Assembly (NCBI RefSeq): GCF_014635065.1
Contig: NZ_BMCG01000002.1
Span: 620,001-684,000, forward strand
Reading direction: 5' to 3'
DNA: 64,000 nt
Source: Oxalicibacterium flavum
Lineage (GTDB): Bacteria > Pseudomonadota > Gammaproteobacteria > Burkholderiales > Burkholderiaceae_D
The notes under the pieces were generated by a model. The model was not told the DNA's origin. It did not search any database and saw only the letters and a program-made list of their open reading frames with translations. Numbering within the stretch: position 1 is the stretch's first letter; each line of letters begins with the position of its first letter. The translations under genes were made by a program, and so were the position numbers. This document shows, in pieces, positions 10,280 to 62,696 of the stretch.

Positions 10280-11525
10280 AGCGGGTCGCAATCTGGAAGC
10301 CCTTGGTCCGGTACGTCGTGGCAGACGTCGCATCGGAATTCAGGCGCTGATCGTAAACAGACAGTCGAATGTTGAGTTGCCTCAACGGCAGATACGTCAT
10401 CCCCAATGTGCTCTTGCGGTATCGATCCGATCGGTCGATCCGGTTGTAATCCCTGTCCTCCGACTGCAGCATGGCATCGAAGCCCATCTTGGCGGTCGCC
10501 TGCCAGTTGGCCTTGATGCTCGCACCGGTGTTGCGCGAGTAATTCGAGCTCAGGTCATCGGGCTCGCCGACGATCGCCTCGCGATCGTAGCGATAGATGC
10601 CGGAACCCAGTTCACGCCATGCCGCCAGCGTAAAGCTGGTCTTGCCGGTCGCCGCCCAGTTGGCCGTAAGGCGCGCATCGGGCCCGGTGAAATCGCGGCC
10701 CACCTGCGAATCGAAACGCCGTCGTGCCCAGCCGCCAAGGAACTGCAGATCGGTCTTGCCGGTCAGCCGCCACTTGACGTTGGCCTTGACCTCGTCCTGC
10801 GTGTAATCGCTGCCCAGGCCCGGCAACTGGTTCGGATAAGTCGCATCGCTGTGCCGCAGCACCAGGCCGATCCGGTTCTGGCTGCGCGCGATGTAATCGA
10901 TGCCGACCTCGCTCGCGTCGATGCTCAAACGCGCCGAGGGAATATCTTCGTAATTCACGTCGTCGCGGCTCACGCCCGCCGTCACGCGCCACGCCGGATG
11001 GAAATGCCAGCCGCCGTTGGCGAACGAGCGGCGCTGCGTGCGCACGCTGCTCGGCAACGGCGTGCCGTCGGCCGCAACGTCGTTGAACGGCGTCAGCGTC
11101 TCGATGTAGCTGGTGCCCACGTTGCCGCTGAAGCGATTGCCCATGACCCAGTTCCAGTTCGCCAGCAGGCGACGCCCGTCGTTGTCGAAACGGCTGAAGT
11201 CGTCGTACCTGGTGTCGTTGAGCGAAGCATCCACACGCACGCGCTGACGGCTGATTTCCTTGTCGAATCGAATTCCCACTGTCGTCTTCCGCCAGGTATC
11301 TCCCGACCGCACGCCATCGTCCGGTTGGCGGGAAATGTTGTCGTCGTGATAGATGCCATAACCTACATACGGGGTGAACGTATCGCCCTCGGCCGCCAGC
11401 ACCGGCTGCGCCGCGATCAGCAGACACACGCCGAGTTGCACCACACCGATCCGCAAGCGCACCGTTTCACCGCAACCCTTGCCGATCCCGTGCGAATGAA
11501 GCGCTGCGGCAATGCCAGCCTGCAT
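10269..11525 (-). CDS. epsL: EpsL, outer-membrane beta-barrel protein of the eps operon
   Basis: A beta-rich outer-membrane protein whose export signal core (IGVVQLGVCLLIAAQPVLA) ends just before the mature start AEGDTFTPYVGYGIYHDD. The rest alternates short amphipathic strands and turns, and the C-terminus TKGFQIATRYEF ends in the aromatic residue typical of barrels. It is the first gene of the eps operon and matches the EpsL family, possibly an outer-membrane EPS secretin. The start is uncertain: ATG at 11525 has a GAGGGGG ribosome site eight bases upstream, but an in-frame TTG at 11573 with GGGAGAGG upstream is also possible. Confidence 0.82.
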   Translation of the reverse strand: MQAGIAAALHSHGIGKGCGETVRLRIGVVQLGVCLLIAAQPVLAAEGDTFTPYVGYGIYHDDNISRQPDDGVRSGDTWRKTTVGIRFDKEISRQRVRVDASLNDTRYDDFSRFDNDGRRLLANWNWVMGNRFSGNVGTSYIETLTPFNDVAADGTPLPSSVRTQRRSFANGGWHFHPAWRVTAGVSRDDVNYEDIPSARLSIDASEVGIDYIARSQNRIGLVLRHSDATYPNQLPGLGSDYTQDEVKANVKWRLTGKTDLQFLGGWARRRFDSQVGRDFTGPDARLTANWAATGKTSFTLAAWRELGSGIYRYDREAIVGEPDDLSSNYSRNTGASIKANWQATAKMGFDAMLQSEDRDYNRIDRSDRYRKSTLGMTYLPLRQLNIRLSVYDQRLNSDATSATTYRTKGFQIATRYEF

Positions 11526-45570: not shown

Positions 45571-46737
45571 TTAGTCATTTCCGAACAAATCCCGGGTATA
45601 TATCTTGTCCTGAATATCCATCAGTTGCGCATCCAGCCGATTGGCCACAATCACATCCGCCTCTCGTTTGAATGCTTCCAGATCATTCACCACCCTGGAA
45701 CGGAAAAATTCACTCTCCTCCAGGACAGGCTCATAAACGATCACCTCGATGCCTTTGGCCTTGATGCGCTTCATGATTCCCTGGATGCTCGAAGCTCGGA
45801 AATTGTCCGAGCCGGCCTTCATGATCAGGCGGTAGATACCAACGACCTTGGGATTTTTCCGCACGATGGATTCGGCAATGAAATCCTTGCGGGTGGTATT
45901 GGATTCCACGATGGCGTGCACAAGATTCTGCGGAACATCGCGGTAATTGGCGAGCAATTGCTTGGTGTCCTTGGGAAGGCAGTAGCCGCCATAGCCAAAC
46001 GATGGATTGTTATAGTGGTTGCCGATTCGCGGATCCAGCGCCACACCCTCAATGATTTGGCGTGTATCGAGGCCATGCGTTGCTGCGTAGGTATCCAGCT
46101 CGTTGAAATAAGCCACGCGCATGGCAAGATAGGTATTAGAAAAAAGCTTGACGGCTTCAGCCTCGGTGGCGTCAGTAAACAGCACCTGGGCATCCTTTTT
46201 TACCGCGCCTTCGACCAACAAGTCTGCAAATACCCGCGCCCGCTCGGAGCGCTCGCCAATGATGATCCGTGAAGGGTAAAGGTTGTCATACAACGCCTTG
46301 CCTTCACGCAGGAATTCCGGCGAGAACATGACGTTCTCACAACCGGTCTTTTCCTTGATTCCGGCCGTGTATCCGACAGGGACCGTGGACTTGATCACCA
46401 TGACCGCGCGTGGATTGATCTGCCGGACATCGGCGATGACGGATTCGACGGAACGAGTGTTGAAGTAATTGGTATCGGCGTCGTAGTCGGTAGGCGTGGC
46501 AATGACGACAAAATCGGCGCCTTCATAGGCTTCCTGCTTGTCCAGAGTCGCCGTCAGATCAAGCGCTCGGTTCTGCAGAAAATCTTCGATCTCGGCATCG
46601 ATGATTGGTGATTTTCCACCATTGATTGTTGCAACCCGGTCGGGATTGATATCGATTGCAACCACTCGGTGATGCTGCGCCAACAGAACGGCGATGGACA
46701 TCCCTACATAACCTGTGCCGGCAATGGCAATTTTCAA
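45571..46737 (-). CDS. ugd: UDP-glucose 6-dehydrogenase
   Basis: A 388-residue enzyme oxidising UDP-glucose to UDP-glucuronate. The NAD loop is [37 protein letters not shown] and [20 protein letters not shown] are family motifs; the catalytic cysteine is Cys253 in GGYCLPKDT. The short length matches the E. coli Ugd type. It lies on the minus strand 83 bases upstream of manC, so the polysaccharide may contain glucuronate or a derivative. Base composition is near the chromosomal norm. Confidence 0.96.
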
Positions 46738-46948: not shown

Positions 46949-48241
46949 TTAGCGCAACAGATGAGTCGAGTTGAAAATGGCAAGGAACGTACTACCCTTC
47001 CCCTCCTCCGACTCGATCTCCAGCACCGCCCCATGCCGCAACAGCACATGCTTGACGATGGCCAGGCCGAGGCCGGTGCCCTGGGTTTCGCGGGAGCGGC
47101 TTTTATCGACGCGGTAGAAGCGCTCGGTCAGGCGGGCGATGTGTTCGGCGCGGATGCCGATGCCGCTGTCCTTGACCGAGAACTGCGGCCCTTTCGCGGT
47201 CTGTTGCCACTGAATGTGGATGTGGCCGCCATCCGGCGTGTAGCGGATGGCGTTGGTGACGAGGTTGCCGAAGGCACTGCGCAACTCGTCGGTGTTGCCA
47301 TCGATGTCGGGACCATCGATGTCGAGGGAAATCTTGTGGCGACCGCCGGAGAGCGCGTTGGCCTCCTGCAGCAGCTGTCCGAGCAGGTTGCGGATGTTGA
47401 CCTGCTCGGTGCGCAGCGGATAGTCGATCGATTCCAGCCGCGTCAGGGTCAGCATGTCCTCGATCAGGTTCTGCATGCGCTGGCCCTGCTCGATCATCAG
47501 CTTGAGGTGCCCCATGCGCACCGATTGTTCGAGATCCGGCTGGGCTTGGGCGATTTCCAGGAAGCCGTTGATGACGGTCAGCGGCGTGCGCAACTCATGC
47601 GAGGCGTTGGCGATGAAATCGCGGCGCATCATGTCGATGCGCTCGGTCTCGGTCACATCGTGAGTGACCAGGATCTGGCGGCGATTCTCGAACGGGATAA
47701 TCTGGACGATCAGCTTGCGATCCTTGACGTTGAGTGTCAGCGGCTGCTCATAGTGGCCGAGGATGATGTAGTCGATAAAGGCCGGATCGCGGATCAGATT
47801 GGTGACGCGCATGCCCTTGTCGCGCGTGTTGCTGAGTCCCAGGTGCTTTTCGGCAGCAGGATTGCACCATTCGAGGAACAGCACGTCGTCCATGATGGCG
47901 ACGCCGTCCGGCAGCAGGCTCATGGCCTGGCGGAAACGGGTCAGCCATTCACTGAGTTCCTTGCGGTTGCGCTCGTCGTCGCGGCGCAGGCGATACAGGC
48001 GCGAGAAGACATCGGTCCATGCGCCCCAGCCATCGGGCAGTTTTTCGCTTTCGGGATGATCGAGCCAGCCGGAGAGCAGATACAGATAATTGAGCTGAAC
48101 CAGCACCAGCGCCAGCAGGAACAGCAGGCCGGCCGCCAGCCCGGCGGTCAGGCCAAGGAAATAGCCGACCACTGCCGCCGCCGCCAGTACGATGACAAGC
48201 CGCAAGGCAGCAGGGATCCAGAACAGCAATTGGGGACTCAT
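46949..48241 (-). CDS. phoR: Phosphate-regulon sensor kinase PhoR
   Basis: A 430-residue membrane histidine kinase. Two membrane segments lie at the N-terminus (about 8-55), a PAS-like domain around 95-200 (LLPDGVAIMDDVLFLEWCNP), the H-box FIANASHELRTPLTVINGFL, the N-box FGNLVTNAIRYTPDGG and the G-boxes KDSGIGI and TQGTGLGLAIVK. It senses Pst status and phosphorylates PhoB. It follows phoB by 12 bases. The 211-base gap between phoR and ugd (46738-46948) holds only a weak hairpin ATTTCC-GTAT-GGAAAT. Confidence 0.95.
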   Translation of the reverse strand: MSPQLLFWIPAALRLVIVLAAAAVVGYFLGLTAGLAAGLLFLLALVLVQLNYLYLLSGWLDHPESEKLPDGWGAWTDVFSRLYRLRRDDERNRKELSEWLTRFRQAMSLLPDGVAIMDDVLFLEWCNPAAEKHLGLSNTRDKGMRVTNLIRDPAFIDYIILGHYEQPLTLNVKDRKLIVQIIPFENRRQILVTHDVTETERIDMMRRDFIANASHELRTPLTVINGFLEIAQAQPDLEQSVRMGHLKLMIEQGQRMQNLIEDMLTLTRLESIDYPLRTEQVNIRNLLGQLLQEANALSGGRHKISLDIDGPDIDGNTDELRSAFGNLVTNAIRYTPDGGHIHIQWQQTAKGPQFSVKDSGIGIRAEHIARLTERFYRVDKSRSRETQGTGLGLAIVKHVLLRHGAVLEIESEEGKGSTFLAIFNSTHLLR

Positions 48242-48253
48242 CGGCAGACCGGC

Positions 48254-48946
48254 TTATTTTTCGGAAAGCATATAGCCTACACTGCGCACGGTCTTGATCA
48301 GGGATTCCGCCTCTTTCAATGCCTTGCGCAAGCGCAGCACGTGGACGTCCACCGTGCGTTCCTCGATCACCACGTGGTCGCCCCATACCTTGTCGAGCAA
48401 CTGATTGCGCGAGAACACGCGTTCCGGATGCGCGAGGAAGAACTTGAGCAGCTTGAATTCGGCATGGCCGATGTCGATCTTTTCGTTGTGCAGGCTGACC
48501 GTGCAGCTGATCGGATCGAGCGTTACCGCTCCCGCCGTCATCAGCGTCTGCGAATGCTCGGGCGTCTTGCGGCGCAGCAGCGCATTGATGCGCGCGGTCA
48601 GTTCGCGCGGCGAGAACGGCTTGGTGACGTAGTCGTCGGCGCCGTTGTCGAGGCCGGCGATCTTGTCTTCTTCCATGCTCTTGGCAGTCAGCATGATGAT
48701 CGGCAGTTCGTTGAACTGGCGGTCGCCGCGGATGCGCGAAAGCAGGCGCAGACCGCTCTGGTCGGGCAGCATCCAGTCGAGCAGGATCAGTTGCGGCAGC
48801 CGCTGCTGCAGGAAATCCCAGGCTTCGCCGGCGGTCTGTGCCGCCACCACGTTCCAGCCAGCACCTTTCAGGGTAAATGTCACCAGTTCGACGATTGGGG
48901 CTTCGTCTTCGACGATCAGGATGGTCGGTTTGTCGGCGGTGGCCAT
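48254..48946 (-). CDS. phoB: Phosphate-regulon response regulator PhoB
   Basis: A 230-residue OmpR-type regulator. The receiver domain carries ILIVEDEAPIVELVTFTLKG, the phospho-acceptor in LILLDWMLPDQSG and the conserved Lys in VTKPFSPREL. The winged helix (about 130-225) includes EFKLLKFFLAHPERVFSRNQ and RTVDVHVLRLRKAL. The start at 48946 (MATADKPTILIVEDEAPIVE) is the family start. It would bind the Pho boxes at 53952, 54010 and 59688. Confidence 0.96.
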   Translation of the reverse strand: MATADKPTILIVEDEAPIVELVTFTLKGAGWNVVAAQTAGEAWDFLQQRLPQLILLDWMLPDQSGLRLLSRIRGDRQFNELPIIMLTAKSMEEDKIAGLDNGADDYVTKPFSPRELTARINALLRRKTPEHSQTLMTAGAVTLDPISCTVSLHNEKIDIGHAEFKLLKFFLAHPERVFSRNQLLDKVWGDHVVIEERTVDVHVLRLRKALKEAESLIKTVRSVGYMLSEK

Positions 48947-49062
48947 GTTGTTGGTTCTATTCCTTCTCTTTACTTGGTTAACGAAGACGATGCTAAACGT
49001 AGAATGCATCCGCATTAGTCGCTTCTACTGTGCTGAAACCACCCAACTACGCATTTCCTTCG

Positions 49063-49180
49063 CCGTCATTCCCGCGTAGGCGGGAATCCAGCACGTATAA
49101 CATTGCTCCGCTGTCAGTTTATTGCCTTGACATGCGTGATGCCTTAATTCCCTGGATTCCCGCCTACGCGGGAATGACGG
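49063..49180. repeat. Pair of dRS3-like repeats, inverted, between phoB and phoU
   Basis: Two perfect 29-base copies face each other: 49063-49091 (begins CCGTCATTCCCGC) and its reverse complement at 49152-49180, with 60 bases between. Each copy has the core ATTCCC-N8-GGGAAT and is itself a hairpin. Together they could fold into a long stem in the phoU-phoB mRNA. The rest of the 348-base gap (48947-49294) shows no gene and no clear Pho box. Confidence 0.9.
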
Positions 49181-49294: not shown

Positions 49295-49993
49295 CTACTC
49301 CGTCAGCTGCGCTGCCGCATAGTCGGTATGGCGAATATCCTTGCCTTCGACGATATAGATGACGTATTCGGCGATGTTCTTGGCATGGTCGCCGATGCGC
49401 TCGATCGCCTTCGCCACCCATAGCGTATCCAGCGCGCAGGAGATGGTGCGTGGATCCTCCATCATGAAGGTGATCAGGCTACGCATGACGGAGCGGAACT
49501 CGTGGTCGACCACGGCATCCTCCGCGATCAGGCGGACGGCTTGCTTGTCGTCGAGGCGTGCAAAGGCATCCAGTGCATCGTGCAGCATCTTGCTGGCACT
49601 GGCTGCCATCACACGGATGTTCTCGTAGTGGTTGATGGCGGTCAGGCCGCGTTCGCCGATGGCCTTGCCGGCACGCGCGATCTTGGTCGCCTCGTCGCCC
49701 ACGCGCTCGAGGTCGGTGATGACCTTGATGGTCGCCATCACGGTACGCAGGTCGTTGGCGGCCGGCTGGCGCTTGACGATCAGGTGGCTACAGGCATCGT
49801 CGAGCGAGACCTCGAGATTGTTGACGTTCTCGTCGGCCTTGATGATCTGTTCGGCCTGGTTGACGTTGCCGGTACGGAAAGCGGTGATCGCATCCTGGAA
49901 CTGGCTTTCGACGAGGCCGCCCATCAGCAGCACCTTGGAGCGGATCGTTTCCAGATCCATGTCGTACTGCTTGGAAGAGTGTTCGCCTGGCAT
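49295..49993 (-). CDS. phoU: Phosphate transport regulator PhoU
   Basis: A 232-residue protein of two PhoU helical bundles: MDLETIRSKVLLMGGLVESQ with the acidic metal-binding set in the first, and LRTVMATIKVITDLERVGDE and VAKAIERIGDHAKNIAEYVI (two ExxxD-type repeats) in the second. PhoU links the Pst transporter to PhoR and keeps the Pho regulon quiet when phosphate is high. AGGAGAATCACC precedes the ATG. It lies 34 bases after pstB. Confidence 0.96.
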   Translation of the reverse strand: MPGEHSSKQYDMDLETIRSKVLLMGGLVESQFQDAITAFRTGNVNQAEQIIKADENVNNLEVSLDDACSHLIVKRQPAANDLRTVMATIKVITDLERVGDEATKIARAGKAIGERGLTAINHYENIRVMAASASKMLHDALDAFARLDDKQAVRLIAEDAVVDHEFRSVMRSLITFMMEDPRTISCALDTLWVAKAIERIGDHAKNIAEYVIYIVEGKDIRHTDYAAAQLTE

Positions 49994-50027
49994 GGTGATT
50001 CTCCTGAATATGCTGTGGTTGTCGCGA

Positions 50028-50813
50028 TCAGCCGAAGCGGCCGGTGATGTAGTCCTGGGTATCCTTCTTGGCCGGGTTCATGAAGATCTGGTCGGTCTCG
50101 CCGAATTCGACGAGCTCGCCCAGGTACATATAGGCCGTGAAGTCCGAGCAGCGTGCCGCCTGCTGCATGTTATGAGTCACGATGGCGATCGTGTAGTCGC
50201 CCTTCAGCTCGCTGATCAGTTCCTCGATCTTGGCGGTCGAGATCGGATCGAGCGCCGAGGTCGGCTCGTCGAGCAGCAGCACGTCGGGCTTGACCGCCAC
50301 GCCGCGCGCGATGCACAGGCGCTGCTGCTGGCCGCCGGACAGCGACAGGCCGCTCTTGTTGAGCTTGTCCTTGACCTCGGTCCACAGCGCGGCCTTGTTC
50401 AGCGCCCATTCGACGCGCTCGTCCATCTCGCCCTTGGGCAGGTTTTCATAGAGACGCACGCCGAAGGCGATGTTGTCGTAGACCGACATCGGGAATGGTG
50501 TCGGCTTCTGGAACACCATGCCGACCTTGGCGCGCAGCATGTTGACGTCCTGCCCCGGCTCGAGGATGTTGCTGCCGTGGTAAAGAATCTTGCCTTCGGC
50601 GCGCTGACCCGGATACAGGTCGTACATGCGGTTGAAGGTGCGCAGCAGCGTCGATTTGCCGCAACCCGACGGTCCGATGAAGGCCGTGACCTTCTTGTCG
50701 TGGATGTCGAGGTTGATGTTCTTCAGTCCCTGGAATCCACCGTAGTAGAAATTGAGGTTCTGGATCTGCAGCGTCTTCTTGTTGATCGTATCGATCGTGG
50801 ATTGAGTGGTCAT
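50028..50813 (-). CDS. pstB: Phosphate ABC transporter ATP-binding protein PstB
   Basis: A 261-residue ATPase: Walker [21 protein letters not shown], signature [20 protein letters not shown] and Walker [41 protein letters not shown] is the Q-loop of the PstB subfamily. It powers high-affinity phosphate uptake through PstA and PstC. It lies 12 bases after pstA. Confidence 0.97.
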
Positions 50814-50825
50814 GGCTTACCCGAA

Positions 50826-51701
50826 TCAGTGTTGGTTCTTTTGGTGGAACATCGCGCGCGACAGGATATTGAGCGCCAGCACGCTGAAGGTGATCAGCAG
50901 CGCCCCGCCCCATGCCAGCTCGCGCCAGTTGTCGTAGGGACTCATGGCGAACTGGTAGATCACTACCGGCAGGTTGGCCATCGGCGCGTTCATGTTGGTG
51001 CTGAAGAACTGGTTGTTGAGCGCGGTGAACAGCAGCGGCGCGGTTTCGCCCGAGATGCGCGCCACCGCCAGCAGCACGCCGGTGATGACGCCGGCCTTGA
51101 CCGCGCGCAGGCGGACGAAGGTCGCCACGCGCCAGCGCGGCGCGCCGAGTGCGAACGCCGCCTCGCGCAGGCTGGTCGGCACCAGGCCGAGCATGTTGTC
51201 GGTAGTACGCACCACCACCGGAATCGCGATCAGCGAGATCGCGAAGCTGCCGGCCCAGCCCGAAAAATGCTGGACGTTGGCTACGTAGATCGCATAGATG
51301 AACAGGCCAATCACGATCGACGGCGCCGACAACATGATGTCGGTGACGAAGCGCGTCACCTTGGCGAACAGGCTGACCTCGCCGTACTCAGCCAGATAGA
51401 CACCGGCCAGGATGCCGATCGGCGTGCTGATGAAGGTGGCGGCGCCGACCATCAGCAGGCTGCCGACGATGGCATTCATCAGACCACCGCCCTCGCTGCC
51501 CGGCGCCGGCGTGGTATGGGTGAAGATATCGAGGCCGATCGCGCCGATGCCCTTGACCACCAGCGTGAACAGAATCCAGCCGAGGAAGAACAGGCCCAGC
51601 ACCATCGCCAGGAAAGACAGCGCGATACCCGCGCGGTGGATCATCAGACGCTTGCGGTAGACCGGATTGCCGGCCGCCGCCTGCATGACGTCATTGCTCA
51701 T
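50826..51701 (-). CDS. pstA: Phosphate ABC transporter permease PstA
   Basis: A 291-residue permease with six membrane segments. The start is ATG at 51701 ([20 protein letters not shown]), overlapping the pstC stop (ATGA). A much longer frame runs antisense-like through pstC in another reading frame and is not coding. The EAA-type loop is [20 protein letters not shown]. Typical PstA features include the [20 protein letters not shown] periplasmic segment. Confidence 0.95.
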
Positions 51702-52726
51702 TTTCCGCCCTCCTTGTGGGCCATGCCAAGCAGCATCAGCTTGGCAGCCGACAGCACGACAAAAGTGATCAGGAACAGGATCAGACCAAGTGCGAACAGC
51801 GAGGACACGTGCAGCACGGTTTCGGCCTCGGCGAATTCGTTGGCCAGCGTCGAGGCGATACTGTTGCCGGCCGCGAACAGCGACCACGACAGCTTGTGCG
51901 CGTTGCCGATCACGAAGGTGATCGCCATCGTCTCGCCAAGCGCGCGGCCCAGACCCAGCATGACGCCGCCGACCACGCCGATGCGCGTGTAAGGCAGCAC
52001 GATCTTGCGCACCACTTCCCACTTGGTGCAGCCCATCGCGTAGGCCGACTCCTTGAGGACCGGCGGCACGATCTCGAACACGTCGCGCATCACGGAGGCG
52101 ATGAACGGGATGATCATGACAGCCAGGATGATGCCGGCCGCCAGGATGCCGATACCCATCTGCGGGCCGCGGAACAGTTCGCCGATCACCGGCAGCTGCC
52201 CCAGCGTCGAGGCCAGCGCCGGCTGGATGTAGTCGGAGAACAATGGCGCGAACACGAACAGGCCCCACATGCCGTAGATGATGCTGGGCACGCCGGCCAG
52301 CAGTTCGACGGCGGTGCCGAGCGGACGCTTGAGCCAGTTGGGGCAGATTTCGGTGAGGAACAATGCGATGCCGAAGCTGACCGGAAACGCGATCAGCAAG
52401 GCGAGAAACGAGGTCACCAGCGTGCCGACGATGGCGATCGCCGCACCGTACTGGTCGTTGACAGGATCCCATTCCACGCTGGTGAGGAAGGGCAACCCGA
52501 ATTCCTTCAATGCCGGCCATGCGCCTATCATCAGCGAGGCGATGATGCCCAGCAAGACCAGCAGCACGGTCAATGCAAAAAGGAAGGTGACTTTGTGAAA
52601 CAGGAAATCCTGCACCCGCTGGCGACGCATGGTGGCCATCAACGCCTTGCCGAAGGCGGCTTCTCTCTGGGCGGCGGCGTCATGCGTGATCATGGGTTCG
52701 GATAGGGAATTTGGATTGGCGCTCAT
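51698..52726 (-). CDS. pstC: Phosphate ABC transporter permease PstC
   Basis: A 342-residue permease with about six to seven membrane segments and a long cytoplasmic N-terminus. The EAA-type loop is [40 protein letters not shown] is the usual periplasmic stretch. It forms the channel with PstA. The gap to pstS is 115 bases. Confidence 0.95.
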
Positions 52727-52841
52727 GTTTTTCTATGCCCGAAGGGGCTGCCACGTTGTCGATGTCTGATTTGGCATCGTCACCGGGGCAACCCTTGCAA
52801 CTTCATTCAAACAGCGAAGGATTCGCTATACACAAGAACCA

Positions 52842-53885
52842 TTACCAGACGGCCTTGCCGGAAGCGTCCTTGACGTTGGCTTTCCATGCGTCCTGGACCA
52901 GCTTGACGACCGGCGCCGGCATTGCCACGTAGTCGAGTTCGGAAGCTGCCTCGCCGCCGTTCTTGTAAGCCCAGTCGAAGAACTTCAGGACTTCCTTGCC
53001 GCGCTCAGCCGAAGCCTGCTGCTTGTGAACCAGGATGAACGAAGCACCCGTGATCGGCCAGCTGGCCTTGCCCGGCTGGTTGGTCAGCACCACGCCCATG
53101 CCCGGAGCCTTGGCCCATTCGGCGCCGGCTGCGGCTGCCTTGAAGGACGCATCGTCAGGCTGCACGAACTCACCGGCGCTGTTCTTCAGCTGGGTGTGCG
53201 ACATCTTGTTCTTCTTGGCATAGGCATACTCGACATAGCCGATCGAACCGCGGATACGCTGCACGTTGGCGGCCACGCCTTCGTTACCCTTGCCACCCAC
53301 GCCGGTCGGCCATTTGACGGCGGTACCGGCACCCACGCCTTCCTTGAACTCAGGCACGGTCTTCGACAGGAAATCGGTCCACAGGAAGGTAGTGCCCGAA
53401 CCATCCGAACGGTGGACCACGGTGATGTCCGAATCCGGCAGCTTGACGCCCGCGTTCAGCGCGGTGATCTGCGGATCGTTCCATTTGGTGATCTTGCCGA
53501 GGTAGATGGCAGCGATCACTTCCGGAGTGAATTTCAGTTGACCAGGCGCCACGCCGTCGAGGTTGACGATCGGCACCACGCCGCCCATGATGGCCGGGAA
53601 CTGCAGCAGGCCTTCTGCTTCCAGGTCTTCCGCTTTCAGCGGCATGTCGGATGCGCCGAAATCGACGGTCTTGGCCTTGATCTGCTTGATGCCACCGCCC
53701 GAGCCGATCGACTGGTAGTTCAGACCGGTACCGGTGGAAGCCTTGTAGGTTTCAGCCCATTTGGAATAGATGGGGTATGGGAAAGTCGCACCGGCGCCGG
53801 TGATATCGGCGGCCATTGCGGACGACAGTGCCATGGCTGCGCTGGCGGCAACGAAGGCGGATTTGACAAGATGATTCAATCGCAT
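52842..53885 (-). CDS. pstS: Periplasmic phosphate-binding protein PstS
   Basis: A 347-residue precursor with a signal peptide (MRLNHLVKSAFVAASAAMAL, cut near AMA). Phosphate-ligand motifs are visible: ITGAGATFPYPIYSKWAETY, IGSGGGIKQI, DFGASDMPL and VVHRSDGSGTTFLWTDFL. It hands phosphate to PstCA. AAGGAGCAGTC precedes the ATG, and a Pho box lies about 67 bases upstream. It heads the pstSCAB-phoU-phoB-phoR run. Confidence 0.97.
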   Translation of the reverse strand: MRLNHLVKSAFVAASAAMALSSAMAADITGAGATFPYPIYSKWAETYKASTGTGLNYQSIGSGGGIKQIKAKTVDFGASDMPLKAEDLEAEGLLQFPAIMGGVVPIVNLDGVAPGQLKFTPEVIAAIYLGKITKWNDPQITALNAGVKLPDSDITVVHRSDGSGTTFLWTDFLSKTVPEFKEGVGAGTAVKWPTGVGGKGNEGVAANVQRIRGSIGYVEYAYAKKNKMSHTQLKNSAGEFVQPDDASFKAAAAGAEWAKAPGMGVVLTNQPGKASWPITGASFILVHKQQASAERGKEVLKFFDWAYKNGGEAASELDYVAMPAPVVKLVQDAWKANVKDASGKAVW

Positions 53886-53951: not shown

Positions 53952-53969
53952 ATGACAGGCATATGACTT
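53952..53969 (-). promoter_or_regulatory. Pho box of pstS
   Basis: On the minus strand AAGTCAT (53963-53969) and CTGTCAT (53952-53958) are separated by four bases, and a weaker third unit GACATTT follows at the same 11-base step. This is the PhoB direct-repeat pattern. It lies 67 bases before the pstS start. Confidence 0.82.
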
Positions 53970-54009: not shown

Positions 54010-54027
54010 CTGTCATCAAGTTGTCAT
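54010..54027 (+). promoter_or_regulatory. Pho box of ppk
   Basis: CTGTCAT (54010-54016), the spacer CAAG, and TTGTCAT (54021-54027) match the PhoB direct-repeat consensus on the plus strand. TAGACT near 54038 may be the -10. The ppk start is 31 bases downstream of the box. Confidence 0.82.
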
Positions 54028-54057: not shown

Positions 54058-56178
54058 ATGGCCAAAGTCAAGAAAATGCACAAGAAAGCTGTCGCTGCTG
54101 CCGTGCCGCAACCGGTCCCGCCGAAAAGCGCCCTGTTCCTGAACCGTGAACTGTCGCAACTTGCATTCAACCGGCGCGTGCTGGCACAGGCCGAAAATCC
54201 TGCAGTGCCGCTGCTCGAGCGTCTCAAGTATCTGTGCATCGCCAGCAGCAACATCGACGAACTGTTCGAAGTACGCATCGCCAGCCTGCTGGCCAACAAC
54301 CATATAGATGGCGAAAAGATCGAGGAAACGCCGGCGCTGTCCGCCGCACTCGAGATCGCCGGCGCCGAATGCCACCAGATCGTTGAGCGTCAGTACCGCG
54401 TGCTGAACGAAAGCGTGCTGCCGCAGCTGGCCGCGCAAGGCATTTATCTGCTGCGCGACCAGGACCGCAATGAGGCGCAACGGGCATGGGTCAAGTCCTA
54501 CTTCGACCGCGAGGTACGGCCGCTGCTGACGCCGATCGGCCTCGATCTTGCGCACCCTTTTCCGCAGGTAGTCAACAAGAGCCTGAACTTCATCGTGGAA
54601 CTGTCGGGCAAGGATGCCTTCGGCCGCGGCACGGCGATCGCCATCGTCAAGGCGCCACGCGTGCTACCACGCGTGATCCAGCTGCCGCCCGAACTGTCGA
54701 AGGACGGCGTAGCCTTCTGCCTGCTGTCGTCGATCATCCACGCACACATCAACGATCTGTTTACCGGACGCGAGGTGCTGGCCTATTCGCAGTTCCGCGT
54801 TACGCGCAACAGCGACCTCTGGGTTGACGAGGAAGAGGTCAAGAACCTGCGACAGGCGTTGCAGGGCGAATTGCAGAGCCGCAACTTCGGCGTGGCGGTA
54901 CGGCTCGAAGTCGCCAAGAACTGCCCGCCGCATCTGTCGCGTTTCCTGCTCGAACAGTTTTCCATCGCGGAGAATCGCCTATATGCGGTGGATGGCCCGG
55001 TCAACCTGGTGCGCCTGTCGGAACTGATCGATCTGGTCAACAAACCGGAACTGCGCTTCACTCCCTATGTGCCGGCCTATCCGCCCAAGCTCGTCAACGC
55101 CGACTTGTTTGCCACCATCCGCAAGCACGACGTGCTGCTGCACCATCCGTTCCAGTCGTTCCAGCCGGTGCTGGAGTTCGTGCGCGATGCATCGCGCGAT
55201 CCTGCCGTGGTGGCGATCAAGCAGACCATTTACCGCACCGGCATGAACTCCGACCTGATGGAATCGCTGATCTACGCGGCCCAGCACGGCAAGGAAGTCA
55301 CCGTCATCGTCGAACTGATGGCGCGCTTCGACGAGGAAGCCAACATCAACTGGGCCGACCGTCTCGAGCGCGCCGGCGCGCAGGTGGTCTATGGCGTAGT
55401 CGGGCTCAAGACGCACGCCAAGCTGGCGCTCGTGATCCGACGCGAGGACAGCGGCTTCCGCTACTACGCGCATCTGGGCACCGGCAACTACCATCCGAGC
55501 ACCACCAAGTTCTATACCGACTTCGGCCTGCTGACCGCCAATCCGGCCATCGCCACCGAAGTCAACGAAGTCTTCATTCACCTGACCAGCCTGACCAAGC
55601 CGAAGAAACTCGACCGTCTGTGGCTGGCCCCGTTCTCGCTGCAGAAGGAATTCATCAAGGCGATCGGCAACGAAGCGCGCATCGCGCGCGCCGGCCGCCC
55701 GGCGCGCATCATCGCCAAGATGAACGCCCTGCTCGACGAATCGGTGATTCGCGCGCTGTATGCGGCCTCGGCGGACGGCGTCAAGATCGACCTGATCGTG
55801 CGCGGTGCCTGCGCGCTGCGTCCCGGCGTGCCTGGGCTGTCGGACAACATTCGCGTGCGCTCCATCGTCGGCCGTTTCCTCGAACACAGCCGCATCTACT
55901 ATTTCCGCAACGACCTCGCGCACGATGTCTATCTGTCCAGCGCCGACTGGATGAACCGCAACCTGTTCCGCCGCATCGAGGTCGCCTTCCCCATTCTCGA
56001 CCCGGCGCTCAAGAAGCGCGTCATCAACGAAGGCCTGAATCCCTATCTGAAGGACACCAGCAACGCCTGGGAACTGGACGCCAACGGCAACTACCGCCTG
56101 CGTCGTCCTCGCGGCAAGACCGCGCCGTTCAGCGCCCAGTCATGGCTCATGCAACTGCACGGCAACTCGATGGAGTAA
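54058..56178 (+). CDS. ppk: Polyphosphate kinase 1
   Basis: A 706-residue enzyme that polymerises ATP gamma-phosphates into polyphosphate. The N-domain begins FLNRELSQLAFNRRVLAQAE. The catalytic part has HHPFQSFQPVLEFVRDASRD, VVALKQ-like VVAIKQTIYRTG and GLKTHAKLALVIRREDSG with the autophosphorylated His. The second His is in RFLEHSRIYYFRN. Length is normal. Its Pho box and position opposite pstS say it is made under phosphate stress. sixA follows after three bases. Confidence 0.97.
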   Translation: MAKVKKMHKKAVAAAVPQPVPPKSALFLNRELSQLAFNRRVLAQAENPAVPLLERLKYLCIASSNIDELFEVRIASLLANNHIDGEKIEETPALSAALEIAGAECHQIVERQYRVLNESVLPQLAAQGIYLLRDQDRNEAQRAWVKSYFDREVRPLLTPIGLDLAHPFPQVVNKSLNFIVELSGKDAFGRGTAIAIVKAPRVLPRVIQLPPELSKDGVAFCLLSSIIHAHINDLFTGREVLAYSQFRVTRNSDLWVDEEEVKNLRQALQGELQSRNFGVAVRLEVAKNCPPHLSRFLLEQFSIAENRLYAVDGPVNLVRLSELIDLVNKPELRFTPYVPAYPPKLVNADLFATIRKHDVLLHHPFQSFQPVLEFVRDASRDPAVVAIKQTIYRTGMNSDLMESLIYAAQHGKEVTVIVELMARFDEEANINWADRLERAGAQVVYGVVGLKTHAKLALVIRREDSGFRYYAHLGTGNYHPSTTKFYTDFGLLTANPAIATEVNEVFIHLTSLTKPKKLDRLWLAPFSLQKEFIKAIGNEARIARAGRPARIIAKMNALLDESVIRALYAASADGVKIDLIVRGACALRPGVPGLSDNIRVRSIVGRFLEHSRIYYFRNDLAHDVYLSSADWMNRNLFRRIEVAFPILDPALKKRVINEGLNPYLKDTSNAWELDANGNYRLRRPRGKTAPFSAQSWLMQLHGNSME

Positions 56179-56181
56179 ACA

Positions 56182-56640
56182 ATGGACCTGATCCTGTGGC
56201 GACATGCGGAAGCGGAAATGGGCGAGCCCGACGAAGGCCGTGCGCTGACCTCCAAGGGCCACAAGCAGGCCGCCCGCATGGCGGAATGGCTGGACCGTCA
56301 CCTGACGCAAAGTTGCCGCATCCTGGTCAGCCCGGCCACGCGCACCGTGCAGACGGCGGAGGCACTGTGCCGCAAGTTCAAGATCGTACCCGACCTCGCC
56401 CCCGACTCCACCGCCGAACGCATCATCGCAGCCTCCCACTGGCCCGACAGCCGCGAACCGGTCCTGATCGTCGGTCACCAGCCGACGCTGGGCCAGGTCG
56501 CCTCCACCATCCTGACTGGTGTCGAACAGGACTGGACCATTCGCAAGGGCAACATCTGGTGGATCGTGCGCCGAGAACGCGAAGGCGTGACGGATCACTA
56601 TCTGCGCACGGTGTTGTCGCCGGAGTTGGCGGGGAAATAA
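56182..56640 (+). CDS. sixA: Phosphohistidine phosphatase SixA
   Basis: A 152-residue histidine phosphatase: the catalytic LILWRHAEAEMGEPDEGRAL (RHG-type motif as RHA), RILVSPATRTVQTAE, and the second His in VLIVGHQPTLGQVAS. SixA dephosphorylates histidine phosphocarrier proteins such as ArcB or PTS(Ntr). GGAG precedes the ATG. Co-transcription with ppk is common in betaproteobacteria; the functional link is not clear. Confidence 0.93.
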   Translation: MDLILWRHAEAEMGEPDEGRALTSKGHKQAARMAEWLDRHLTQSCRILVSPATRTVQTAEALCRKFKIVPDLAPDSTAERIIAASHWPDSREPVLIVGHQPTLGQVASTILTGVEQDWTIRKGNIWWIVRREREGVTDHYLRTVLSPELAGK

Positions 56641-56720
56641 GGGCGAGTCGGGATTCGAGATAGAGAAGGCTCTTTCGCACTGCGTCCGCTACTTTTTAGA
56701 CTGCCATGAGTCGCATCCAT

Positions 56721-56920
56721 CTGGATTCCCGCCTGCCGCGCGCATCGGCACTTGCAGGTGCCGACCGTTGCGCAGGCGACTGGCGTGCCAGTCGAATTCC
56801 CTGCTTCATCCTGCGCGGGAATGACGGAGTAGGTTGAAGCGTATGCTCTCTGTGGAGGCGTCGAATCAGTCCGTATGCTTCAAATCAACTTCCGTCATTC
56901 CCGCGCAGGCGGGAATCCAG
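56721..56920. repeat. Split and intact dRS3-like repeats between sixA and agt
   Basis: An intact 29-base copy is at 56892-56920. Upstream, 56721-56736 and 56810-56827 are the two halves of a second, inverted copy. Both halves carry CCTGC (56732-56736 and 56810-56814) around a 73-base insert. The insert includes ACTGGC-GTGCCAGT and a stretch that might be another degenerate unit. The rest of the 354-base gap (56641-56994) between the convergent genes has no gene that I can support. Confidence 0.8.
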
Positions 56921-56994
56921 TACTGAGTCTCCTCGAAGAACAACCGTACAGAAAGCAACATCCGCTTCCAACCGCCAGGCAGACAAGACAGCCT

Positions 56995-58029
56995 TTACCC
57001 CACCGTCGCCATCTTCCCCACCACCGCCCGACTGCGCACAGGATGCAGGTGATTGACAAACTGCTGCGTCGCCGTCGCCCATGAATAACCGAGCGCATAT
57101 TCGCGCACGGCCGAGCGTTTCAGGTTCAGGGCATTGAAGCAGGCAGTGGTCAGGTTGTGGTCGAGCACGCCGCTGCGGCCGTCGGCCACCACGTCGATCG
57201 GGCCTTCGACCGGATAAGCGGCAACCGGCACGCCGCAGGCCATGGCCTCGATCATGACGAGGCCGAAGGTATCGGTACGGCTCGGGAAGACGAACACGTC
57301 GGCGCAGTTGTAGTAGGCCGGCAGCGCGTCGTGCGGCTTGCTGCCGAGGAAGCGCACCTTCGGATAGCGGCGTTCCAGCTCGTCGCGCAACGGTCCGTCG
57401 CCGATCACCCATTTCGAACCCGGCAGGTCGATGTCGAGGAAGGCCTGCACGTTCTTCTCCACCGCCAGGCGGCCGACGTACAGGTACAGCGGCCGGCTCA
57501 GCGACGATTCCTCGCGCGGGCCGGGGCGGAAATGATCGGTATCGACACCGCGGCTCCATTGCACCACGTTGCGGAAACCGCTCTTCTCCAACGCCTGCTG
57601 CACGCGCGGCGTCGGCACCATGATCGCCTTGGACGGACCATGGAACCACTTGAGCCAGCGATAGGTGACCGCCAGCGGCAGGCGGAAGCGCGCGCGCAGG
57701 TATTCGGGGAAGCGCGTGTGATACGCGGTCGTGAAGTTAAGGCCGTGCGACAGGCAGTAGCGGCGCGCCGCCAGTCCCATCGGCCCTTCGGTCGCGATGT
57801 GGATGCAGTCCGGCTCGAAAGCATCGAGCACCGACGAAACCTTGCCGTAGGGCTTGTACGCCAGGCGGATCTCGGGATAGGTCGGGCAGGAATAGCTGCG
57901 CAGCCCCTCGGGCGTCACCATCATCACGGTGTGGCCCATGCGCCGCAGCTGGCGACGCGTGTTGCGCAGGGTGTTGACGACGCCGTTGACCTGGGGCGCC
58001 CAGGCGTCGGTTACGATGGCGATACGCAT
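56995..58029 (-). CDS. agt: GT4 glycosyltransferase, Agt-like glycolipid synthase candidate
   Basis: A 344-residue GT-B enzyme: MRIAIVTDAWAPQVNGVVNT with the NGV acceptor loop, GLNFTTAYHTRFPEYLRARF, YLYVGRLAVEKNVQAFLDID, VIGDGPLRDELERRYPKVRF and SRTDTFGLVMIEAMACGVPV (E-x7-E). This is the GT4 type close to diacylglycerol glucosyl/glucuronosyltransferases that stand beside plcP. The start overlaps plcP by 19 bases, and a GGAGG site is present. It would glycosylate the diacylglycerol released by PlcP; the sugar is not known. A mannosyltransferase role is an alternative. Confidence 0.8.
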   Translation of the reverse strand: MRIAIVTDAWAPQVNGVVNTLRNTRRQLRRMGHTVMMVTPEGLRSYSCPTYPEIRLAYKPYGKVSSVLDAFEPDCIHIATEGPMGLAARRYCLSHGLNFTTAYHTRFPEYLRARFRLPLAVTYRWLKWFHGPSKAIMVPTPRVQQALEKSGFRNVVQWSRGVDTDHFRPGPREESSLSRPLYLYVGRLAVEKNVQAFLDIDLPGSKWVIGDGPLRDELERRYPKVRFLGSKPHDALPAYYNCADVFVFPSRTDTFGLVMIEAMACGVPVAAYPVEGPIDVVADGRSGVLDHNLTTACFNALNLKRSAVREYALGYSWATATQQFVNHLHPVRSRAVVGKMATVG

Positions 58030-58865
58030 GGTTCGTCTGCCTCCTCATGATGGTGCGACACGGTGCTGCCGACGATGTCCTGCCAGGTGACCAGGCGCAG
58101 CGCGCCAGCCCTGTCCTCGACCAGCGCGCTCAGGCTTTCGACCCAGTCGCCGTCGTTGCAGTAAAGGATGCCGTCGATGTCGCGTATTTCGGGTTTATGG
58201 ATGTGGCCGCAGATCACGCCATCGAGTCCGCGCCGGCGTGCCTCGTCGGCCAGCGCGGTTTCGAACGAGGTGATGTAGCTGACGGCGTTCTTGACCTTGA
58301 GCTTCAGGTATTGCGAGAGCGACCAGTACGGCAGGCCGGCGCGCGCGCGCCAGCTGTTGAGCCACTGGTTCCACTTCAGGATCAGCGTGTAGAGGTTGTC
58401 GCCCACGTAGGCCAGCCACTTGGCGCAGGCGATCACGCCGTCGAAGCGGTCGCCGTGCAGCACCAGCATGCGCTTTCCCTGGGCAGTCGTGTGCACAAGC
58501 TCGTCGCGCACACGGATGCCCCCGAAATCGAGGTCGATGAACTGGCGTACCGCTTCGTCATGGTTGCCCGGCACGAAGATGACCCTGGTACCCTTCTTGG
58601 CCTTCTTCAGCACCGTCTGGATCAGGTTGTTGTGGGCCTGATCCCAATACCAGCGGCGCTTGAGCTGCCAGCCGTCGATGATGTCGCCAACCAGATACAG
58701 TGTGTCGGATTCGGTACGGCGCAGGAACTCGAGCAGACGCTGTGCCTGGCAGCCGGTGGTCCCCATGTGCACGTCGGAAATCCAGATCGTGCGAAAGCGC
58801 AGCGGTTCGCGCCGCGCCTCGCCCTTGAAGAAATCGCGTGTCAGGAACGAATCGTGTGGTTTCAT
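58011..58865 (-). CDS. plcP: PlcP-type phospholipase C (calcineurin-like phosphoesterase)
   Basis: A 284-residue metallophosphoesterase. Metal ligands appear in order: TIWISDVHMGTTGCQAQRLL (D-x-H), YLVGDIIDGWQLKRRWYWDQ (GD), FVPGNHDEAVRQFIDLDFGG (GNHD), LVLHGDRFDGVI and VICGHIHKPEI (GHIH). NDGDWVES is characteristic of PlcP, which splits phospholipids under phosphate limitation to diacylglycerol. It is usually annotated as a UDP-2,3-diacylglucosamine hydrolase, but it differs from LpxH. Its ATG overlaps the olsB stop (ATGA), and AAGGAGAGG precedes it. Confidence 0.85.
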   Translation of the reverse strand: MKPHDSFLTRDFFKGEARREPLRFRTIWISDVHMGTTGCQAQRLLEFLRRTESDTLYLVGDIIDGWQLKRRWYWDQAHNNLIQTVLKKAKKGTRVIFVPGNHDEAVRQFIDLDFGGIRVRDELVHTTAQGKRMLVLHGDRFDGVIACAKWLAYVGDNLYTLILKWNQWLNSWRARAGLPYWSLSQYLKLKVKNAVSYITSFETALADEARRRGLDGVICGHIHKPEIRDIDGILYCNDGDWVESLSALVEDRAGALRLVTWQDIVGSTVSHHHEEADEPCVSPS

Positions 58866-59629
58866 GCCGCCTCTCCTTCCTTCAGGTAGTGCCGCGCGTA
58901 ACGGCTGTCGAGTCTGGCCAGCGGCAGCATCATGAACATGTCGGCGCTGTGGAATTCGGCATCCCATGCAGGTTCGCCGCAAATCCAGGCACCGCTGCGC
59001 AGGTATCCCTTGATCAGGGGCGGCATCACCGGGCGGTTGTCGCTGCGCGGCGGCGCGATCGGAAAGGCGAGATGCGGCTTGACGCGGTACTCGACGGGCG
59101 CCATGTTGGTCTCGGCGAGCGCGTGATAGATGGCTGCGGCATTGTGTCCGCCATCGGCCAGACTGACGCTGGCGCAGCCGATCAGGTATTCGCAACCATG
59201 CTTTTGCATGTAGGCGGCAATCCCCGCCCACAGCATCATGATGACGGCGCCGCTGCGATACTTGGGATGAATGCAGGCGCGGCCGGCTTCCGTCATGCGG
59301 CCGCGCAGATGATCGAGGCGGGCCAGGTCGAACTCCTGCTCGGAATAGAAGGCACCATGGCGTTGCGCCGCTTCCGGACTCAGCACGCGATAGGTGCCCA
59401 CCACCTTCAGCGTGGCCGAGTCGCGCACGATCAAATGATCGCAGTAGTCGTCGAACGCATCGCGGTCCAGACGCTCCGGATTGCGCAGGGCATCCAGTCC
59501 CATGCCTTCGATGAACACCTTGTAGCGCAAGCGCTGCACTTCGCGCACTTCCTTTGGCGTAGTCGCCATGCTCAGCGTCAGCCGCGATGCGGCGGCGTTC
59601 TGATCGTTGGAAGTCGTCAATCCTTGCAT
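58862..59629 (-). CDS. olsB: Ornithine-lipid N-acyltransferase OlsB
   Basis: A 255-residue acyltransferase of the GNAT-like OlsB family: VREVQRLRYKVFIEGMGLDA, FDDYCDHLIVRDSATLKVVG, GAFYSEQEFDLARL and TEAGRACIHPKYRSGAVIMM are its usual blocks. OlsB joins a 3-hydroxyacyl group to L-ornithine, the first step to phosphorus-free ornithine lipids. The start at 59629 (MQGLTTSNDQNAAASRLTLS) has AGGAG eight bases upstream; the longer frame is the leader, including the Pho box. No OlsA gene is in the window. It heads olsB-plcP-agt. Confidence 0.88.
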   Translation of the reverse strand: MQGLTTSNDQNAAASRLTLSMATTPKEVREVQRLRYKVFIEGMGLDALRNPERLDRDAFDDYCDHLIVRDSATLKVVGTYRVLSPEAAQRHGAFYSEQEFDLARLDHLRGRMTEAGRACIHPKYRSGAVIMMLWAGIAAYMQKHGCEYLIGCASVSLADGGHNAAAIYHALAETNMAPVEYRVKPHLAFPIAPPRSDNRPVMPPLIKGYLRSGAWICGEPAWDAEFHSADMFMMLPLARLDSRYARHYLKEGEAA

Positions 59630-59687
59630 ATGCTGGTCTCCTTTTCGTTGTGACGGAGCCAGCGTAGCCAGCGATTGCTTCAGCAGA

Positions 59688-59716
59688 ATGACAGTTGCAT
59701 GTCCGTTCGATGACAT
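59688..59716 (-). promoter_or_regulatory. Triple Pho half-site of olsB-plcP-agt
   Basis: On the minus strand ATGTCAT (59710-59716), CGGACAT (59699-59705) and CTGTCAT (59688-59694) repeat at exactly 11 bases, each followed by a four-base spacer (CGAA, GCAA). They match the PhoB half-site CTGTCAT at 6, 5 and 7 of 7 positions. They lie 59 bases before the olsB start. Confidence 0.8.
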
Positions 59717-59821
59717 GACAACAAGAGCGATGTGGCGGACTTACTCACACCGGCCTGGAAGAATCAGACGCCGCATTCTTGCCGGAATGCATGCATCTGG
59801 ATGTCACCTCAAACAAAAAAA

Positions 59822-59845
59822 AGGCCGATGCACAAGCATCGGCCT
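59822..59845 (-). terminator. Terminator of the histone-like/RHH gene
   Basis: A perfect 10-bp stem AGGCCGATGC/GCATCGGCCT with loop ACAA. On the minus strand a run of T follows (TTTTTTTGTTTG). It lies 45 bases after the stop of the gene at 59890-60585. Confidence 0.93.
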
Positions 59846-59889
59846 CGATTTCGCCCCGGCAGCGCAGCCACCGCCACGCTACCGCGCAA

Positions 59890-60585
59890 TCACTTTTCCT
59901 TCTTTGGCCGCCCCGCCTTGATCGGCGTCAGCTTCGCAATCACCTCATGCAGCTTGCTGAACTCCAAGCTCTGGATCAACGCCACGCCGGCGCGCAGCAG
60001 TTCGCTCTTCTTGATCGATACACCCGCCTTGAGAAAAGCCTTCTTCACGTCGGCCAGCACCTGATACTCGAGTTCAGGCATGGTGAAGCTGTCGCGTACC
60101 AAGCGTGGCTTGCGGGTCTTGCTCTTTGTCGCGCCGTGCTTGCTGCCCGACTTGGCCTCGGCGCGTGCCTTGCTCTTGTCTGCCTTGGCCTTGCCGGCGC
60201 TGGCGACTTTTGCAGCGCGCTTTCCAGCCGGTGCAGTGACGGGCTTGGCAGCAGACTTGTCAGCTACCGAAGCCGACTGAACCGTGCTCTTTGTTACGGG
60301 TGAAGATTTGGCTGCATCCGACGATGTCTTCCTGGCCGTGCCGGAGAGGGCCGATTTTTTTGCAGGCGCCTTCTTCGCAGCGGTCCTGGTGGTTGTCTTG
60401 GCAACCGACGCCGACTTCCTGGCCGCCGGCTTTTTCGCTGCAGATGCCGCAACCGGCTCCGCGACGGAACTGCCCGCGCGCTTGGCCGGTGATTTTGCTG
60501 CCGTCTTGGCAGTCGTGGTTTTTCTGGAGGTTGCGGCAGTCGTCCTGCCTGCCGGTGCTGCCTTGACTTCGGTTTCCTGCGACAC
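59890..60585 (-). CDS. Histone-H1-like tail fused to a ribbon-helix-helix domain
   Basis: A 231-residue protein with two parts. Residues 1-160 are a low-complexity, Lys/Ala/Ser/Thr-rich tail with repeats such as AAKKPAARKSAS and KAPAKKSALSG, like histone H1 or AlgP-type bacterial tails. Residues 162-231 look like an RHH domain: strand LVRDSFTMPE, helix ELEYQVLADVKKAFLKAG and helix IKKSELLRAGVALIQSL. The end KAGRPKKEK resembles an AT-hook. The start is GTG at 60585 because AAGGAG lies six bases upstream; an ATG at 60603 lacks one. It is probably a nucleoid-associated or regulatory DNA-binding protein, perhaps controlling itself. Confidence 0.8.
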   Translation of the reverse strand: MSQETEVKAAPAGRTTAATSRKTTTAKTAAKSPAKRAGSSVAEPVAASAAKKPAARKSASVAKTTTRTAAKKAPAKKSALSGTARKTSSDAAKSSPVTKSTVQSASVADKSAAKPVTAPAGKRAAKVASAGKAKADKSKARAEAKSGSKHGATKSKTRKPRLVRDSFTMPELEYQVLADVKKAFLKAGVSIKKSELLRAGVALIQSLEFSKLHEVIAKLTPIKAGRPKKEK

Positions 60586-60616
60586 GATCGACTCCTTTTC
60601 CATAAATAGTATAAAT

Positions 60617-60645
60617 AATATATACAATTTATTATCCGCACGCAA
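60617..60645 (-). promoter_or_regulatory. Promoter of the histone-like/RHH gene
   Basis: TTGCGT (60640-60645) and TATATT (60617-60622) are 17 bases apart on the minus strand. The region is a run of A and T with partial symmetry (ATAAATAATATATA), which could also be an operator. The start codon at 60585 is about 25 bases after the likely start point. Confidence 0.7.
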
Positions 60646-62584: not shown

Positions 62585-62696
62585 CTGGATTCCCGCCTGC
62601 GCGGGAATGACGGAGCGTATAGAACTTATTCAGGGCTTTGCCAAGTCAGCCGTCGGTAACTTAAAACCCGTCATTCCCGCGCAGGCGGGAATCCAG
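62585..62696. repeat. Pair of dRS3-like repeats, inverted, between dedA and ppx
   Basis: Two 29-base copies face away from each other: 62585-62613 (begins CTGGATTCCCGCC) and 62668-62696 (begins CCGTCATTCCCGC), with 54 bases between. Both have the ATTCCC-N8-GGGAAT core. The rest of the 300-base gap between ppx and dedA shows no gene. Confidence 0.9.

Follow-up and report, generated by a model that had tools for sequence, protein, structure and literature searches.

The closest described relatives of the locus reported here are the PlcP-Agt operons of Pseudomonas aeruginosa (PA3219-PA3218), Methylosinus trichosporium and Candidatus Pelagibacter HTCC7211, in which the gene of a PlcP phospholipase C is followed by that of a GT4 glycosyltransferase, Agt, with a Pho box upstream. 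In the passages we drew on, three papers connect PlcP-Agt with the glycolipids monoglucosyl-diacylglycerol (MGDG) and glucuronic acid diacylglycerol (GADG) under phosphorus stress: P. aeruginosa has PA3219 PlcP, PA3218 Agt1, a Pho box and both lipids (PMC8528852), a plcP-agt deletion mutant makes no GADG (PMC9239053), and the HTCC7211 agt yields MGDG and GADG in Escherichia coli (PMC4796936). A second related system is the OlsBA pathway of Sinorhizobium meliloti and of the P. aeruginosa olsBA operon, with an OlsB-type N-acyltransferase and Pho-type control. According to passages of PMC5082522, PlcP, OlsAB and a UDP-glucose dehydrogenase are PhoBR-dependent in Pseudomonas putida BIRD-1, where olsAB (PPUBIRD1_0974/0975) and plcP (PPUBIRD1_1390) lie at separate places. 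Here we describe a locus of Oxalicibacterium flavum, olsB-plcP-agt, within a stretch of 64,000 nucleotides (nt) that we call the window (contig NZ_BMCG01000002.1, positions 620,001 to 684,000). Unlike the PlcP-Agt operons, this unit has olsB as its first overlapping gene, and unlike the OlsBA pathway it couples olsB to plcP rather than to olsA, with no olsA that tracks olsB recognised in the genome. Very probably, it is a PhoB-controlled operon that replaces membrane phospholipids with phosphorus-free lipids. This reading is based on the homology of the three proteins, on the Pho box and on the recurrence of the arrangement; the reactions, substrates, induction and joint effect are inferred. 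The unit comprises the following features:

58862-59629, minus strand: olsB, 255 amino acids after start correction, OlsB-type ornithine N-acyltransferase by homology
58011-58865, minus strand: plcP, 284 amino acids, PlcP-type metallophosphoesterase (phospholipase C) by homology
56995-58029, minus strand: agt, 344 amino acids, Agt-type GT4 diacylglycerol glycosyltransferase (PF13439, PF13692)
59688-59716, minus strand: Pho box with half-sites ATGTCAT, CGGACAT and CTGTCAT in 11-nt register, 58 nt before the olsB start

An earlier reading of this DNA from its letters and open reading frames (the sequence-only reading) had seen three overlapping genes here, and the frames were recovered at 58862-59716, 58011-58865 and 56995-58029, all on the minus strand in the order olsB-plcP-agt. 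The olsB and plcP frames overlap by 4 nt (58862-58865) and those of plcP and agt by 19 nt (58011-58029). Its three gene calls and the Pho control hold in silico. That reading described olsB as fused into the unit, which can only mean translational coupling, since there is no fusion at the protein level. Its olsB start at 59716, which would give 284 amino acids, was discarded, as the ATG there forms part of the first Pho-box half-site. The ATG at 59629 is preceded by an AAGGAGA ribosome site; in 13 of 15 relatives' loci no ATG or GTG of the olsB frame lies further upstream than its counterpart. OlsB is therefore 255 amino acids long, not 284. The exceptions are L014, with another start 54 nt further up, and L011, where the frame is split. 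In this last locus (712-1468, same-genus genome G003) olsB is broken into two frames, between which about 20 residues are lost, beside full-length plcP and agt, which makes it either a pseudogene or an assembly error.

The strongest evidence for the predicted Pho control is comparative. We scanned for the consensus CTGTCATNNNNCTGTCAT, as quoted in the passages of PMC8528852, in the 230 nt upstream of olsB at 80 named loci; these are the best 80 of 589 confirmed stretches, so they are biased to close relatives. A box with up to three mismatches is present in 46 of the 80 regions, where dinucleotide shuffles predict 0.94, and one with up to two mismatches in 21 (0.12 expected); the other 34 regions have no box at up to three mismatches. 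By eye, the footprint of the box is kept in relatives. The array of half-sites that the sequence-only reading had proposed is in place upstream of olsB, with two and three mismatches to the consensus. At up to two mismatches the window holds three sites, at 53952, 54010 and 59688, before pstS, ppk1 and olsB, and at up to three mismatches it holds ten Pho-like sites against 4.6 expected. The whole genome has 17 sites at up to two mismatches, four of which fall within 10.5 kb (pstS, ppk1, olsB and ppx); the ppx site stands just beyond the window edge, some 190 nt ahead of the start of that gene.

The second gene encodes a PlcP-type protein, a predicted phospholipase C that would release diacylglycerol (DAG). 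Pfam places it among the calcineurin-like phosphoesterases. It is 49.6% identical over 248 amino acids to PlcP of S. meliloti Ak57, 55.5% over 236 amino acids to a plasmid-borne PlcP-type protein of P. aeruginosa, and 63.6% to a Mitsuaria PlcP-type protein. The record that contains the S. meliloti reference bears the name pSymB, but we take the gene to be the chromosomal SMc00171, which its acyl-homoserine lactone (AHL) synthase and LuxR neighbours fit. Public records often annotate plcP genes as UDP-2,3-diacylglucosamine diphosphatase, and the best NCBIfam models of the window protein are indeed those of LpxH. The comparison with LpxH models that the sequence-only reading had proposed comes out for PlcP: the scores of 46.5 and 41.2 bits fall far short of the cut-offs (134 and 190) and lie within the range of the reference PlcPs (38-55 bits; S. 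meliloti 38.1 and 38.9, the P. aeruginosa type 55.1 and 44.5). A separate LpxH-like frame stands at G000:C2:527023 of the genome, named LpxH by similarity; its product is 30% identical to PlcP over 117 residues (25-30% across comparisons). In the alignment all 15 PlcP rows read GNHDE where the LpxH-like protein has GNRDF. In a tree of 47 rows (43 loci had a plcP match, and two with fewer than 200 aligned residues were left out) the window PlcP groups with the PlcP references, and the LpxH-like protein stands alone on a very long branch. We therefore rejected LpxH as the identity of this phosphoesterase, given scores below cut-off and 50-56% identity to PlcPs versus 25-30% to the genome's own LpxH-like protein.

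The third gene encodes an Agt-type GT4 enzyme, a predicted DAG glycosyltransferase that would make a glycolipid, MGDG or GADG. The Agt call of the sequence-only reading is supported by the Pfam GT4 domains and by 49.7% identity over 326 amino acids to the Agt1-type protein that follows plcP on a P. aeruginosa plasmid stretch (L041), whose genes are counterparts of PA3219/PA3218 by gene order and annotation. Taken together, the proteins of the P. aeruginosa PlcP-Agt pair are 50-56% identical to those of the window. In all 11 same-genus loci with plcP, agt lies immediately 3' of it. Further afield GT4 and GT28 enzymes share the slot: at the 26 named loci with olsB directly upstream of plcP, tblastn finds agt after plcP in seven, a GT28 gene in nine, neither in nine and the end of the contig in one. 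These GT28 proteins are of the MGDG-synthase or diglucosyl-DAG-synthase type. Four of them were scanned with NCBIfam, where diglucosyl-DAG synthase is the best match, below cut-off, and one of these four also with Pfam, where MGDG_synth (PF06925) is over cut-off; the match at L047 is by tblastn only, with no long forward frame listed there. As a DAG glycosyltransferase of another family fills the same place, the product of the third gene can be expected to act on DAG, and the exchange supports its predicted glycolipid role. Collimonas and Oxalicibacterium have agt beside plcP, and Undibacterium has neither a GT4 agt nor a GT28 gene there. In four of the nine loci with neither, Pfam identifies the next genes as bamD- and pseudouridine-synthase-type genes, sixA, an EamA transporter and a uracil phosphoribosyltransferase.

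The first gene is best described as OlsB-type on homology, not as a proven OlsB. Its product belongs to PF13444 (GNAT N-acyltransferase, E 4.5e-36), and among NCBIfam families OlsB is the best match (E 3e-50 and 5e-48, followed by OlsF at 6e-19), with scores far above those of the GlsB, AHL-synthase and exosortase-acyltransferase models. The OlsB call of the sequence-only reading thus survives in that the protein does not fall outside OlsB, though its scores stay below the equivalog cut-offs. Among the 80 named loci, script rules assign 26 to olsB beside an OlsA-like gene, 26 to olsB directly upstream of plcP and 28 to neither. Where the neighbour is OlsA-like, OlsB is 51-58% identical to that of the window and is not among its closest relatives; such neighbours support the OlsB assignment for the group, and not its substrate.

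We found no olsA in the operon or beside olsB in the window, and the three PF01553 genes of the genome are on other contigs. The best OlsA candidate is a PlsC/OlsA-like acyltransferase gene at G000:C3:339046-339840 (L034, 1261-2058). Its product is 33% identical to S. meliloti OlsA, and OlsA models match it best (E 6e-36, below cut-off). This gene sits beside a dihydroorotase-like gene. One family genome (G104) has a second L034-like copy (43%) about 1.1 kb from olsB, besides a 54% copy elsewhere, and in another (G076) the sole L034-like copy (37%) adjoins olsB. The proposal of the sequence-only reading that one operon would supply two phosphorus-free replacements is thus partly supported: its gene set is complete for the glycolipid, but for ornithine lipid the operon encodes only the first of two steps. 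In the aminolipid branch the lyso-lipid could be the end product, or the second step could fall to the general enzyme L034 or to an unrecognised enzyme.

The arrangement recurs among relatives, which we sampled as 60 relatives and as 107 family genomes including the window's own, in addition to the 80 named loci. Of the 12 other same-genus genomes in the first sample, 11 have plcP at high identity, always within olsB-plcP-agt in that order; the remaining genome, G004 (90% complete), has no plcP match. Among the 107 family genomes olsB occurs in 78 (E <= 1e-20), plcP in 57 (E <= 1e-40) and both in 55; second olsB fragments of G027 (3643112-3643429) and G130 (11126-11449) are omitted, which leaves the per-genome counts unchanged. 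In 31 of the 57 plcP genomes (31 of 107 overall, the window's own included) olsB immediately precedes plcP, both on one strand. In the others it lies 2-3 kb downstream on the same strand (nine), nearby on the opposite strand (four), on a different contig (ten) or far away (one), or is missing (two).

We fetched the loci of all nine same-strand genomes with olsB downstream and of three of the four opposite-strand ones (not G121). Eight of the same-strand genomes (L127-L134) have a second gene order, plcP-agt-dgkA-sixA-olsB; L135, the ninth, has neither agt nor dgkA. Two Polynucleobacter loci, which count among the 28 with neither neighbour, have plcP-agt-dgkA-olsB, in which plcP and agt precede olsB on its own strand, and they bring the loci with the second order to ten. 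Pfam assigns dgkA in L124 and L127, and tblastn does so in the remaining eight loci; the DAG kinase it encodes would use the same DAG as Agt, and the window's own genome has two dgkA genes, elsewhere. Part of ppk lies downstream on the same strand within the fetched stretch in six of the eight family loci, and both Polynucleobacter loci have a gene 36-39% identical to L034 divergently beside plcP. On an OlsB tree of 94 rows, which took in all 92 loci L047-L138, the arrangements cluster strongly (15 changes versus 52.9 with shuffled labels), and most types show several changes. The olsB genes of Pseudomonas brenneri and P. proteolytica (L077 4001-4777 and L090 4001-4762) share about 60% identity with that of the window; their proteins nest inside Oxalobacteraceae on this tree, which makes a transfer likely.

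We propose that under low phosphate PhoR-PhoB would activate a single transcript from the Pho box at 59688-59716, with the overlapping frames coupling the translation of olsB, plcP and agt. PlcP would cut the phosphate-bearing head group off membrane phospholipids, leaving DAG, and Agt would add a sugar to it, glucose or glucuronic acid by analogy, to give a phosphorus-free glycolipid. OlsB would acylate ornithine to lyso-ornithine lipid, which an O-acyltransferase encoded elsewhere, with L034 as the best candidate, would complete. For the family as a whole the chances appear about even that this is a cassette in which one Pho switch sets off, from one transcript, the breakdown of phospholipids and the synthesis of a glycolipid and an aminolipid; its glycosyltransferase slot would be exchangeable between GT4 and GT28, its aminolipid branch, lacking a dedicated olsA, would give lyso-ornithine lipid or borrow a housekeeping acyltransferase, and the two gene orders would suggest a recurrent module.

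Several observations weigh against the proposed operon. OlsB scores below the equivalog cut-offs of its NCBIfam models (171.4 against 320 and 164.2 against 350) and is only 33% identical to the S. meliloti protein. These models are clade-specific: even S. meliloti OlsB clears just one of them (511.5) and falls short of the other, at 242.3 against 350. Relatives of L034 are present in 106 of the 107 family genomes, with or without olsB; the candidate is thus not tied to olsB and probably has a general role, and this near-universal presence led us to reject it as a proven dedicated OlsA partner and to keep it as a candidate only. Sites at up to three mismatches from the Pho consensus are common (141 genome-wide, versus 82 matches to the reversed pattern), and single weak sites therefore mean little. 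A simple scan of 56500-60000 found no terminator after agt and no sigma-70-like promoter, so that the extent of the transcript is a prediction. Finally, the three genes are separable, as 23 of the 78 olsB genomes lack a plcP match and in nine of the 26 named olsB-plcP loci plcP is flanked neither by agt nor by this GT28 gene.

Some of these observations would also fit other explanations. An N-acyltransferase that uses an amino acid other than ornithine, or that makes a free lyso-lipid or signal, would lead to a different aminolipid and would account for the scores and identity of OlsB and for the lack of an olsA tracking olsB in the family sample; we consider it unlikely, since OlsB models score so far above those of GlsB, AHL synthase and exosortase acyltransferases and since relatives at 51-58% identity lie beside olsA-like genes. 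The separability of the genes, together with the dgkA of the second order, would be expected if they were just neighbours in a Pho island, with PlcP feeding a DAG kinase and phosphate recycling and OlsB acting alone, but the overlapping frames, the single Pho box and the recurrence of all three genes in two orders make this improbable. It is very hard to sustain that the phosphoesterase is a second LpxH in an operon for lipid A or envelope polysaccharide, with the GT4 enzyme acting on lipopolysaccharide or polysaccharide. LpxH models head its NCBIfam matches, it has weak matches to nine distinct LpxH chains in the PDB, and the window has two further GT4-like matches (G000:C2:662088 and 654337); against this stand the LpxH scores and identities described above, the Pho box and the replacement of agt by a GT28 DAG glycosyltransferase in relatives.

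The Pho regulators that the sequence-only reading had placed in the same window are there, and both PhoB and PhoR pass their equivalog cut-offs. The neighbouring features are:

46949-48241, minus strand: phoR (TIGR02966, 405.6 against a cut-off of 334.2)
48254-49015, minus strand: phoB (TIGR02154, 296.4 against a cut-off of 296.2, barely over)
49295-53885, minus strand: phoU (PF01895), pstB, pstA/pstC and pstS, the pst genes with generic transporter Pfam domains and named by context
53952-53969: Pho box before pstS, from the consensus scan
54058-56640, plus strand: ppk1 and sixA, convergent with the operon, with a Pho box at 54010-54027
59821-59846, minus strand: hairpin resembling an intrinsic terminator, from a terminator scan of 56500-60000 on both strands

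Beside phoR, on the minus strand at 45571-46737, is a UDP-glucose 6-dehydrogenase gene (NF011631 below cut-off, TIGR03026 over cut-off). Its product could supply UDP-glucuronate for glucuronosyl-DAG; the window scan found no Pho box at up to three mismatches near it. The hairpin at 59821-59846 was the only one found where shuffles predict 2.3, weak evidence on its own, and by eye similar hairpins stand at the same place in several relatives. It probably belongs to the upstream gene at 59890-60645, in which case transcription of the operon would begin independently. This gene, on the minus strand, encodes a lysine- and alanine-rich protein of 251 amino acids without a Pfam or NCBIfam match, and by eye several same-genus loci have a coding sequence with a similar end upstream of olsB. 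The window also contains five perfect palindromes ATTCCCGC-N4-GCGGGAAT, all intergenic (49068-49175, 56897-56916 and 62589-62692), where 0.07 are expected at up to two mismatches; the family is presumably of REP or dRS3 type.

Each enzyme type is already known; the coupling of olsB to plcP-agt, the glycosyltransferase exchange and the second gene order make this a new form of the PlcP-Agt remodelling system. In the open-licence literature, covered as titles, starts of abstracts and passages with supplements outside this scope, we found no description of olsB in one operon with plcP-agt, although an earlier mention is possible. The term olsB is absent from the main text of PMC4796936, which gives six types of plcP neighbourhood; its supplementary table was outside our scope. 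In its types 3 and 5, as its passages describe them, plcP is followed by other glycosyltransferases, one of which is said to make di- and triglycosyl-DAG. The GT28 genes in third place at nine of 26 named olsB-plcP relatives resemble this, if the published enzymes are GT28, which is a guess, whereas the window has a GT4 gene, in a unit led by olsB. The union of all three functions in one switchable unit has seen little description, and it recurs among relatives.

The arrangement raises the question of how ornithine lipid gets finished without a dedicated olsA, and it lets one ask how a swap of GT4 for GT28 alters the lipid product. Named hosts such as Collimonas, Oxalicibacterium and Undibacterium allow one to ask how the shares of glycolipid and aminolipid are balanced. 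If our reading is true, phospholipid destruction and two phosphorus-free substitutes would stand under one switch in a betaproteobacterial family.

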